Origin: a bacterium
Lineage (GTDB): Bacteria; Cyanobacteriota; Vampirovibrionia; Gastranaerophilales; Gastranaerophilaceae
Reading direction: 5' to 3'
Assembly: GCA_017941035.1 (NCBI GenBank)
Contig: JAGAXG010000047.1
Span: 1 to 38,360 of the forward strand
DNA length: 38,360 bases
Positions 23,740 to 26,835 of this stretch are shown in pieces (the stretch's first letter is position 1; every line of letters begins with the position of its first letter). Under the pieces are notes generated by a model. The model did not search any database. It was not told the origin of the DNA and worked only from the letters and a program-made list of their open reading frames with translations. A program made the position numbers and the translations under genes.

Positions 23740-23840
23740 ATATTAATTAAAATAGATTATAAAAGAAAATTGCTGTTTTTTGTAAACAAATATTTCTATA
23801 TACTTGATTTTTAAATATATTTGTAATAAGTTAGCTACAT

Positions 23841-23910
23841 AACCGCAGACAGTCGGTGCAGTATTGTTAAATATAAATATTGCTTAATTGATTATCAGCC
23901 GGCCGAGGTT
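23841..23910 (+). ncRNA. Ribosomal protein L10 leader (rplJ leader)
   Basis: The stretch reads AACCGCAGACAGTCGGTGC, then a hairpin (GCAGTATT 23858-23865 with AATATTGC 23876-23883), then GCCGGCCGAGGTT. AACC 23841-23844 pairs with GGTT 23907-23910 and TCGG 23853-23856 with CCGA 23903-23906, leaving a one-sided internal loop with CAGACAG. This is the layout of the known L10 leader, which binds the L10(L12)4 complex to autoregulate rplJL. The region 23740-23840 holds no gene and is presumably the promoter region. Confidence 0.8.
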
Positions 23911-23937
23911 CCGAAATATAAATTAGACTTATAGTGT

Positions 23938-23983
23938 AGGATTTTGCGGTCAAAACTGAGAAAGCAAAATCTTTTTTAGTTTT
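23938..23983 (+). promoter_or_regulatory. Attenuator before rplJ with two exclusive hairpins
   Basis: Terminator form: AGGATTTTGC (23938-23947) pairs with GCAAAATCTT (23964-23973), and T6 lies at 23972-23977. Alternative form: AAAACT (23952-23957) with AGTTTT (23978-23983) plus AAAG (23961-23964) with CTTT (23971-23974). The two share bases, so only one can form. It lies between the L10 leader and the rplJ start. Confidence 0.6.
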
Positions 23984-24046
23984 AATTCATAGGTCGATAC
24001 AAAATAATAGTTCGGTAAATATTCCGACATGTAGAAGGAGACAAGA

Positions 24047-24568
24047 ATGTCAACAAAAGCATTTAAAACAGAAAAAATTGATGAAATCAAATCAAAGATA
24101 GAAAAAGCTCAAGTTGCAGTTATTACAGAATACAAAGGTCTTACTGTTGAAGAAATCACGAAACTAAGACGTGAAATTCAGAAAAACGGCGGTGACTACA
24201 TGGTTACCAAAAACACATTAACAAAAATTGCTATAAAAGGAACAGATTATGAACCTTTAGCAGATAAGATGGTTGGACCTATTGCTTTAGCATTCGGTTT
24301 TGAAGACCCTGTAACACCTGCAAAAGCTATAACTAAATTCATCAAAGAAACAAAAAAAGGAGAAATCCTTGGTGCTGTATTAGATGGTAAACTGTTGTCA
24401 ATTGAAGAAACAAAAGCATTAGCAGATCTTCCTACAAAAGAAGAATTGTTTGCAAAAATGCTTGGATCTATCAATTCACCGGCATCTGGTATTGTTGGCT
24501 GCGTAAATGGCGTTATGGCTCAACTTACAAGAGCTATGGCAGCTGTTCGTGACCAAAAAGCAGCATAG
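24047..24568 (+). CDS. rplJ: 50S ribosomal protein L10
   Basis: L10 is the base of the ribosomal stalk; it binds 23S rRNA and L12 dimers. The 173-residue protein has the family pattern VVITEYKGLTVEEITKLRREI-like N-terminus (AVITEYKGLTVEEI at ~25-38), DYMVTKNTL, and the C-terminal helix (LGSINSPASGIVGCVNGVMA) that carries L12. The ATG is preceded by AAGGAG. Expression is probably controlled by the L10 leader and attenuator upstream. The rplA/rplK genes that usually precede it are not adjacent here. Confidence 0.97.
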   Translation: MSTKAFKTEKIDEIKSKIEKAQVAVITEYKGLTVEEITKLRREIQKNGGDYMVTKNTLTKIAIKGTDYEPLADKMVGPIALAFGFEDPVTPAKAITKFIKETKKGEILGAVLDGKLLSIEETKALADLPTKEELFAKMLGSINSPASGIVGCVNGVMAQLTRAMAAVRDQKAA

Positions 24569-24651: not shown

Positions 24652-25032
24652 ATGAGTAACGTAGAAACTATTTTAGAATCAATTGAAAAATTAACTTTGT
24701 TAGAAGCAGCTGAATTAGTAAAAGCTATGGAAGAAAAATTTGGTGTATCTGCAGCAGCTCCTGTTGCGGTTGCCGCAGCTCCTGCAGCTGGTGCAGCTCC
24801 TGCAGCTGAAGATCCTGATGCTGAAGTATCTGTTATTTTAGCTTCAGTTCCTGCTGATAAGAAAATCGCTGTATTGAAAGAAGTTCGTAACATTACAGGC
24901 TTAGGCTTAAAAGAAGCTAAAGACCTTGTTGAAGCAGCTCCTAAGGCAGTTAAAGAAAACATTAAAAAAGCTGAAGCTGAAGAAATCAAGAAAACTCTTG
25001 AAGCAGCTGGTGCTGGCGTTGAAATTAAGTAA
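24652..25032 (+). CDS. rplL: 50S ribosomal protein L7/L12
   Basis: L7/L12 forms the flexible stalk that recruits translation GTPases. The 126-residue protein has the N-terminal dimerisation domain ([20 protein letters not shown]), an Ala-rich hinge (~35-52), and the C-terminal domain with [20 protein letters not shown] and [22 protein letters not shown] precedes the ATG. It follows rplJ by 83 nt and ends the unit at a strong terminator. A membrane-anchored relative of its C-terminal domain is encoded immediately downstream. Confidence 0.98.
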
Positions 25033-25051: not shown

Positions 25052-25080
25052 TTGATTTTAACAGAGAAAAATGTTATTAT
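25052..25080 (+). promoter_or_regulatory. Promoter that fires into the rplL terminator
   Basis: TTGATT (25052-25057), a 17-nt spacer and an extended -10, TGT-TATTAT (hexamer 25075-25080). The expected start (~25086-25088) lies inside the left arm of the terminator, so these transcripts would lack part of the stem and pass through. Confidence 0.5.
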
Positions 25081-25115
25081 AAACGGGCAATCTTTTTTGA
25101 GATTGCCCGTTTTTT
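25081..25115 (+). terminator. Intrinsic terminator after rplL
   Basis: A perfect 12-bp stem (AAACGGGCAATC 25081-25092 with GATTGCCCGTTT 25101-25112) has an 8-nt loop and a T tract to 25115. The Shine-Dalgarno of the next gene begins right after it. Confidence 0.88.
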
Positions 25116-25129
25116 GAGGAGATAAATTT

Positions 25130-25567
25130 ATGATTGATTTAAGATTTTTGTTTGCCGGTATTGCAATTATGCTTATTATCATTGTTAGAGAATTGCTAAA
25201 AAAATATTATAATTTCGATATGGATAATCTCGAAGTTGATAAATCATGCAAAAAATGGAGAAGGTTTATAAAAATAATGATAACAAATTTTCTTAATTTT
25301 AAAAAACAAATTTTTGGTAAAGCTCCAATAATAGAAAAAAATACAGGGACAAATTCTCTTATAATTTTAGAAACAGGAGAAAATAAAGCAACAGTAATGG
25401 CAACTTTGAGACAAATTTTAGAAATTGATTATAAAACCGCAAAAGAAATTGTTGAGTTTGCTCCTTGCAAGTTCTTGGTGAATATTTCTGATAAAGAGGC
25501 TGAATTAACAAAAAAAGCTTTAGAATTTGTAGGTGCTAAAATTGAAATCAGACGTGATAAAAATTAG
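25130..25567 (+). CDS. Membrane-anchored protein with L7/L12-like C-terminal domain
   Basis: This 145-residue protein has an N-terminal membrane segment (~5-20, RFLFAGIAIMLIIIVR), a basic linker (~23-72), and a C-terminal domain (~75-141) that aligns along its length with the C-terminal domain of L7/L12. The stretch TAKEIVEFAPCKFL matches [14 protein letters not shown] of rplL next door, and KKALEFVGAKIEI matches [13 protein letters not shown]. The L12 dimerisation domain and Ala-rich hinge are absent, and the GLGLK loop that contacts GTPases is altered to EIDYK. The gene starts 97 nt after rplL, behind the rplL terminator, with its own GAGGAG site and a likely promoter. It may be a duplicated L12 domain tethered to the membrane. 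Function unknown. Confidence 0.8.
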   Translation: MIDLRFLFAGIAIMLIIIVRELLKKYYNFDMDNLEVDKSCKKWRRFIKIMITNFLNFKKQIFGKAPIIEKNTGTNSLIILETGENKATVMATLRQILEIDYKTAKEIVEFAPCKFLVNISDKEAELTKKALEFVGAKIEIRRDKN

Positions 25568-25652: not shown

Positions 25653-26150
25653 ATGGGAATAGGATTATCATTAAGTAATTTAACTTCAAAAGCAATAAAA
25701 TATGCAATATATGGAAGACAAATAGGGAATACTGCAAAAAACGGTGCTCAAGTGTTTAAAAAAGGTAACGTAATAACAGGACTTAATTCTAATCAAGAAG
25801 TTATAAGCACTATAACAAAAAATAAAATTTCTCAAAATACAATAAAAACTGTAACTGTTAAAAATAAAGGAATAGATGAGTTTGGTTGTAAATTAACAGA
25901 AGAAACAACAGTAACAAGAACAGATACCAAAGATGGCGGAGATATTTTCTTAAGTCGTAAATCTTATGCCGATATAAATGGTTCTAAAATTGAACAACCT
26001 CTTAAACGTGGAACAATACAGTTTTCACAGGTAAATTACGATAAAGTTAACGGTAAAAAAGTTTTTAATTCCGGATGTACAGATTCTCTTTATTTAGATA
26101 AGGATAACCATTTATGGAATTTCAGAAATTATTTGAGCATAAAAAAATAA
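25653..26150 (+). CDS. Orphan protein (165 aa)
   Basis: I do not recognise this protein. It has 165 residues, starts MGIGLSLSNLTSKAIKYAIYG, and is rich in Thr, Lys and Asn. It has alternating beta-like segments (TIKTVTVKNKGIDEFG..., EETTVTRTDT) and no clear signal peptide or membrane helix. It has a good AGAAAGGA site, is a single-gene unit and ends at a bidirectional terminator. TAAAGTAC 45 nt upstream of the start resembles the -35 of the flagellar-type promoters, but no matching -10 follows. Confidence 0.65.
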   Translation: MGIGLSLSNLTSKAIKYAIYGRQIGNTAKNGAQVFKKGNVITGLNSNQEVISTITKNKISQNTIKTVTVKNKGIDEFGCKLTEETTVTRTDTKDGGDIFLSRKSYADINGSKIEQPLKRGTIQFSQVNYDKVNGKKVFNSGCTDSLYLDKDNHLWNFRNYLSIKK

Positions 26151-26179
26151 AAAAAAAGCGGTAAAACCGCTTTTTTTTT
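26151..26179. terminator. Bidirectional intrinsic terminator
   Basis: The core AGCGGT-AAA-ACCGCT is flanked by seven A and nine T residues. It lies between the convergent 165-aa and winged-helix-like genes. Confidence 0.85.
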
Positions 26180-26193
26180 GCAATAAAACATTT

Positions 26194-26835
26194 TTATTTT
26201 AAAGATAATATAAAACCACCTTTATCTGCATTTTTGAGAGCTTCACCTTCAATTTTTGCCCTTAAATTTTTAATGTATTTATAGACATAATCTCTTGGGA
26301 GTTCAAGAAGTTCTGCCAGATCTTTAGCATAAACAATTTTATCTTGTTTAGCGCTAAAATAATCAAATACTTTTTGTTTTCTTTCGGTTAAAGCCTTTTT
26401 AAATACAACTCTAACTTCGTTCCTTACTTCATCAGAAACTTTTTCTTTTACGACATTTTTAGCTTTTGTTAATGCAGGCTTATCAGCTTTTTTCGCGACT
26501 GTTTTTTTAGATTGAACTGATTTCTGCGAACTCTGTTTTTTATCTGTAGTTTTTGTATCTAACTGAAGATTTTTTACAGAGAATGGAGAAAGATAAATAT
26601 CCTTTTCTTTTTCGTATGCTCTATTAGCAATAGAACTTAATCTTTCATTTTGAGATGTCCATTCTTTTTCACTCGATACAACAGGCTTCCCATGCAAAAC
26701 TATATCAACCAAATCATTTGTTTCTTTTTTTTCTTCAATTTTTTTACCTAATCTGGCAGCAAACTCCTCAAGAGTAATTTTTTCTAATGAGCTTCTCCAC
26801 TGCTTAATCTCTTCTTTACTAAGATATTCAGCCAT
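26194..26835 (-). CDS. Protein with C-terminal winged-helix-like domain
   Basis: I do not recognise a family for this 213-residue protein. The N-terminal ~95 residues are helical and acidic (LSKEEIKQWRSSLEKITLEE...). Residues ~96-135 form a Lys/Ser/Ala-rich linker (KKQSSQKSVQSKKTVAKKA). Residues ~148-213 look like a winged helix-turn-helix: RKQKVFDYFSAKQDK, then AKDLAELLELPRDYVYKYI as the helix-turn-helix, and LRAKIEGEAL...GGFIL as the wing. A DNA-binding role is plausible but not shown. TATCTCC on the plus strand gives a GGAGATA ribosome site before the ATG. Confidence 0.6.
   Translation of the reverse strand: MAEYLSKEEIKQWRSSLEKITLEEFAARLGKKIEEKKETNDLVDIVLHGKPVVSSEKEWTSQNERLSSIANRAYEKEKDIYLSPFSVKNLQLDTKTTDKKQSSQKSVQSKKTVAKKADKPALTKAKNVVKEKVSDEVRNEVRVVFKKALTERKQKVFDYFSAKQDKIVYAKDLAELLELPRDYVYKYIKNLRAKIEGEALKNADKGGFILSLK

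Follow-up and report, generated by a model that had tools for sequence, protein, structure and literature searches.

The C-terminal domain (CTD) of bL12 is the ribosome's GTPase catcher. In the 38,360-nt stretch of Gastranaerophilaceae DNA analyzed here (the window), a second copy of this domain is encoded directly downstream of rplL, behind a hydrophobic segment and without the part that binds the ribosomal stalk, which raises the question of what a membrane-tethered version of such a domain would do. The open reading frame in question (25130-25567, + strand) is intact, starts with ATG, and lies 97 nt past the rplL stop. It encodes a protein of 145 aa that begins with a hydrophobic segment, continues with a basic linker and ends in a bL12 CTD; hereafter, we call this membrane-tethered L12-CTD gene CTD-A. 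The same strand carries, further upstream, the L10 leader, an autoregulatory RNA of rplJ-rplL (23825-23986; Rfam RF00557, 50.5 bits for a gathering threshold of 44), rplJ encoding uL10 (24047-24568; PF00466, 103.7 bits) and a complete rplL encoding bL12 with dimerisation domain, hinge and CTD (24652-25032; TIGR00855, 155.3 bits; PF00542 and PF16320, the latter at 78.1 bits). A Shine-Dalgarno sequence, GAGGAG (25116-25121), precedes the start of CTD-A.

A preliminary description, made from the letters of the window, had matched the end of this protein to the bL12 CTD and had suggested a profile search and a structural superposition as checks; both bear the homology out. The Ribosomal_L12 profile PF00542 matches residues 78-140 with an E-value of 5e-11 and 43.2-44.5 bits, compared to a cut-off of 25.9 bits, and its matches across the 1.8-Mb genome are rplL and CTD-A, with none besides. 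No further family was matched in the Pfam search of the protein, and PF16320, the dimerisation domain that binds uL10, gave no match either. TIGR00855, the NCBI equivalog model for bL12, scores 40.7 bits over model positions 61-125 alone, i.e. its last half, which is below its curated cut-off of 84.4 bits and leaves the protein outside the whole-protein definition of bL12. The Ala-rich flexible hinge of bL12 is also missing, with a Lys/Arg-rich linker in its place that is predicted to be partly helical (residues 36-62), so that the loss of dimerisation domain and hinge had been read correctly.

The AlphaFold2 model, built on 27 orthologs, displays a helix at residues 4-27, a helical linker at 36-62 and a CTD with pLDDT of 93-97. 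The CTD (residues 75-142, 25352-25555) has its elements in the order of L12, b-a-a-b-a-b (b1-a4-a5-b2-a6-b3), and superposes on 1ctf, the E. coli L7/L12 CTD, with Z 13.0 and 1.0 Å over 68 residues at 35% identity. The best matches of the model among solved structures are L7/L12 CTDs, and the top match of the family sequence profile is likewise 1ctf (E 6e-13). Homology and modeled fold together confirm that CTD-A encodes a true bL12 CTD. Next among the solved structures comes the ClpS adaptor, which shares the superfold (VIA-align Z 8-10, 11-16% identity). A ClpS-like role finds nothing in its favor beyond this shared fold: the ClpS profile (PF02617) gave no match to the protein at E up to 1, no ClpS gene was found in this genome, and we reject a ClpS-like adaptor on these grounds.

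The N-terminal segment is the sole hydrophobic segment of the protein by both hydropathy and model, and corresponds to helix 4-27 (25139-25210). Its mean hydropathy over 19 residues is 2.48, within a range of 1.64-2.92 over 39 relatives, in each of which hydropathy favors an anchor. Because the uninterrupted non-polar core of the window protein is short (~14 residues, 6-19), the membrane anchor stays a prediction. It is followed by the motif FDMDN (residues 29-33, 25214-25228), in which D32 is nearly invariant, and by the linker, whose net charge is +6 in the window protein and positive in 27 of 27 aligned relatives. Since the basic residues thus come after the anchor, on the CTD side, the positive-inside rule predicts an N-out/C-in topology in which the CTD would face the cytoplasm. 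The arrangement of membrane helix and basic linker first described is in agreement with these data.

Distribution and transcription of CTD-A

We surveyed the synteny of the locus in related genomes, as the preliminary description had proposed. Any PF00542 match is present in 41 of the 46 genomes of the window's genus, and CTD-A in 40 of these 41; in the remaining one (G001), the sequence stops 292 nt past rplL. In 37 of the 40 carriers, CTD-A follows rplL within one contig and in the same orientation, some of them with one extra L12-CTD gene in between and one with a 1.2-kb gap, so the adjacency holds well beyond the window. Two genomes have CTD-A at a contig end. In G193, CTD-A and rplL are on separate contigs and an opposite-strand ORF follows rplL, from which it seems that CTD-A has been kept there without linkage to rplL. 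One copy (L113:1916-2321, genome G012) has its frame broken by a frameshift, corresponding either to a pseudogene or to an assembly error. This genus-wide conservation rules out a chance ORF.

No conserved neighbor of CTD-A was found apart from rplL. In the window, rpoB does not follow rplL; CTD-A is succeeded by a gene for a hypothetical protein and one on the opposite strand (25653-26835). The genes downstream of rplL vary among sister genera. Queries with the protein and with Pfam did not recover CTD-A from genomes of 40 other genera of the family, and in a wider sample of the phylum no CTD-A adjoined rplL among the genomes looked at. Among named records, CTD-A is carried by gut and rumen MAGs of Gastranaerophilales, one of which is Zag_111. 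In the plasmid collection, the annotated matches listed are ordinary rplL. A phage origin of CTD-A was rejected, as PHROG gave no match.

Between rplL and CTD-A, an extended -10 promoter motif, TTGATT-N17-TGnTAnnAT, is present at 31 of 40 orthologous loci, versus 5 of 2000 shuffles that roughly preserve dinucleotide content; exact matches in the 1.8-Mb genome number only 5. The predicted promoter of the window extends over 25052-25080, with a -35 element TTGATT (25052-25057), TG (25072-25073) and a -10 element TATTAT (25075-25080). A hairpin after rplL is present at every linked locus. That of the window, a 13-bp hairpin followed by TTTT (25082-25111), resembles a terminator of rplL; it was not reported by a consensus terminator scan but was by folding (-20.3 kcal/mol, z -5.7). 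With the promoter motif conserved, a hairpin behind rplL and a dedicated L10 leader on the rplJ-rplL transcript, CTD-A appears to be transcribed separately, from a conserved promoter of its own. The conserved promoter and the presence of the hairpin at all linked loci make it unlikely that CTD-A is a plain member of the rplL operon expressed by read-through. Note that the promoter comes after the hairpin in some genomes and before it in the window and its close relatives; the predicted CTD-A transcript of the window therefore starts with a terminator-like hairpin (25082-25111), where attenuation is possible.

Origin of CTD-A and further L12-domain genes

The gene had been attributed to a duplication of the 3' end of rplL followed by gain of an anchor. 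An origin from an rplL CTD stands, but CTD-A is not a simple copy of its present neighbor. No similarity was found at the DNA level between CTD-A and the adjacent rplL, and the G-x-N-K loop before helix 4 is kept in the relatives of CTD-A (G in 39 of 39, N in 39 of 39) as it is in sister genera (14 of 14) and in E. coli. The rplL of the whole genus (window 24652-25032; L032-L068) has instead VPADKK, where all sister genera have the GANK loop, shorter by one residue. As the ancestral loop is kept in CTD-A but lost in the rplL of the genus, CTD-A diverged before, or as, that rplL changed; we regard it as an old paralog of the bL12 CTD that is specific to this genus. The missing DNA similarity and the ancestral loop lead us to reject a recent duplication of the neighboring rplL. 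In a tree of CTDs, CTD-A forms one clade (support 97/90), in an alignment of 69 columns with an uncertain root that cannot place this clade among the rplL lineages. The VPADKK loop itself resembles that of photosynthetic cyanobacteria, by recombination or convergence.

Six genomes (L085, L087, L088, L089, L098, L116) encode between rplL and CTD-A a further protein, CTD-B, with the same make-up of membrane helix, linker and L12 CTD at the same locus. Unlike CTD-A, CTD-B is more L12-like and groups in the tree among the rplL of the genus. It occurs in up to three lineages, which possibly arose in more than one event. The canonical factor-contact residues are whole in two of the three CTD-B lineages, and L085 and L087 keep K65, K70, R73, L80 and K84 altogether behind a membrane helix. 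In the closest ortholog pair, dN/dS is 0.03 for CTD-A and 0.44 for CTD-B, a value from one pair each time as most other pairs are saturated. Judged from this closest pair, CTD-A is under purifying selection and CTD-B, in the one testable comparison, under relaxed selection.

A third type of gene (L052:2178-2492 and L054:295-606), unlinked to rplL, encodes a short protein in which a hydrophobic beginning is combined with an L12-like CTD. Its two copies share 96.6% DNA identity over 1 kb, compared to 68-87% at the rplL loci of the same two species, a pattern that suggests recent horizontal transfer.

Docking face and possible partners

Mean identity over 39 relatives is 94% in helix 4, 84% in helix 6, 58% in the anchor and 27% in the linker. 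Helix 4 (residues 86-97, 25385-25420), the equivalent of the factor-binding helix of L12, is the most conserved element of CTD-A, and helix 6, with LEFVGA, forms a second conserved patch. On the factor face (E. coli numbering), R73 is kept in 39 of 39 relatives, K65 in 35 and K84 in 33, whereas V66 is replaced by Ala in all 39, K70 by Ala in 38 and L80 by Tyr in 34; K81 and E82 vary among the 39. We take V66, I69, R73, L80 and K84 to be also part of the bL12 factor-binding site on helices 4 and 5. The face of CTD-A that corresponds to the GTPase-binding face of bL12 is thus strongly constrained but non-canonical.

The reading that we favor, with a probability of about 0.4, is that CTD-A encodes a membrane-tethered docking arm or adaptor with a single fixed partner, for which a translation GTPase is plausible. 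Because the part binding uL10 is missing, the protein is not expected to assemble into the ribosomal stalk. Its N-terminal anchor and basic linker (~30-50 residues) would instead keep the CTD on the cytoplasmic side of the membrane. There, the helix 4/5 face may dock, in the manner of L12, a single fixed acidic helix from a soluble partner and thereby concentrate this partner at the membrane without depending on stalk synthesis. In bL12, IF2, EF-Tu, EF-G and RF3 bind the CTD through helices 4 and 5, at a site of positive charge (PMC6753160). A translational GTPase (EF-Tu, EF-G, IF2, LepA or TypA) would be the likeliest class of partner, since K65, R73 and K84 are kept and the canonical residues are present in two of three CTD-B lineages. 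The replacement of K70, V66 and L80 and the variation at K81/E82 point to a canonical contact that is weakened or swapped, and the loss of K70 together with L80Y would tune affinity or partner choice. The change of K70 to Ala alone need not abolish binding, as single K65 or K70 mutants lose only ~2- to 4-fold in EF-Tu affinity (PMC10602876). An extra translation GTPase of the genus was considered as the partner and dropped, no such paralog being apparent by PF00009 count (11-12 matches versus 6-12 in sister genera, i.e. no genus-specific expansion).

Nearly as likely as this GTPase-type docking arm, the fold may have been repurposed, the L12-like docking helix now serving a non-translational partner such as a genus-specific membrane or regulatory protein. 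The uniform K70A, V66A and L80Y replacements would fit such a change, along with T67, T71 and Q74, the new residues being near-perfectly conserved, and the LEFVGA patch of helix 6 suggests a new fixed partner. L12 CTDs also occur in unrelated architectures elsewhere, in Cyanobacteriota and in one orthocaspase listed with such a domain (PMC8283722). What speaks for translation instead is the retention of K65, R73 and K84, the canonical face of the neighboring CTD-B copies, and the fact that, apart from rplL, no conserved neighbor points to another pathway.

The docking arm for a translation GTPase can also be drawn in a fuller form, which we consider rather unlikely: a membrane-resident stalk arm, expressed from its own promoter, would gather a translation GTPase to the inner membrane, thereby favoring translation or membrane insertion there, and its evolution would have accompanied the change of factor-binding loop in the genus's ribosomal bL12.

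A membrane dock for ribosomes or for a hibernation factor, by analogy with E. coli YqjD, ElaB and YgaM, is improbable. These proteins, in which no L12 domain is known, resemble that of CTD-A in being small and membrane-anchored, and the single anchor, ribosomal ancestry and very basic linker of the latter would suit a similar task; their anchor, however, is at the opposite end (C-tail rather than N-terminal) and no other Pfam family was matched in CTD-A. The L12 CTD moreover touches factors and not the ribosome core, and the segment through which L12 is attached to ribosomes is missing from CTD-A. YqjD and its paralogs, which are tied to ribosomes, show that ribosome-associated proteins can be membrane-bound (PMC10502375).

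We give still less credit to a decoy that would titrate GTPases or other L12 partners off ribosomes when its own promoter is active. A promoter of its own, apart from the rplJL transcript under L10-leader control, and a docking helix that is the same as in L12 would allow it. With several copies per ribosome, however, bL12 is normally abundant, so that the membrane copy would have to be highly expressed, and its altered face should bind more weakly. A non-functional remnant of an rplL duplication, for which the frameshifted copy of G012 could be invoked if it is not an assembly error, is hardly credible given the intact frame in essentially the whole genus, the conserved promoter, the near-uniform helix 4 and the low dN/dS of the closest pair.

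CTD-A would make it possible to ask directly whether translation factors can be brought to the membrane without the ribosome, and the natural retooling of one helix maps the residues that set partner choice. With an isolated CTD of ~70 residues and known fold, the question is open to simple binding assays.

Comparison with known systems

Our survey for anchored L12 CTDs covered Cyanobacteriota and returned sporadic proteins (L162-L165) in which an N-terminal hydrophobic segment precedes one or two L12 CTDs. L162 (156 aa) has a transmembrane segment (TM) and a CTD, L164 a TM and two CTDs, and another architecture combines a TM with a coiled-coil-like stretch; L162 clusters with cyanobacterial CTDs in the tree. 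Like CTD-A, they place an L12 CTD behind an N-terminal hydrophobic segment outside rplL; unlike it, they are isolated and were not found as a genus-wide neighbor of rplL. No description of the L162-L165 architectures was found, and the open-access literature gave none of a membrane-anchored L12 CTD, including the rplL-adjacent, genus-conserved form, or of a function for it, in agreement with the preliminary description. Tethered L12 domains thus occur sporadically in other Cyanobacteriota, and the rplL-adjacent, genus-conserved form is apparently undescribed.

L12-like segments were also observed in other contexts: a partial stretch within an apparent Mrr-type restriction endonuclease (L059:1002-2237), an L12 CTD at the N-terminus of a protein of 324 aa that also contains hydrophobic segments (L043:990-1961), and two proteins of G058 (L069, L070) with hydrophobic segments that end in an L12-like half motif of helices 4-5, TGxGLKxSK.

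The closest known system remains the CTD of bL12 itself (PF00542, 1ctf), with which CTD-A shares the fold, more than a third of its residues, the GxNK loop and the basic K65, R73 and K84. It departs from bL12 in having a predicted membrane anchor in place of the dimerisation domain and hinge, the substitutions K70A, V66A and L80Y on the face that receives the factors, and a promoter of its own.
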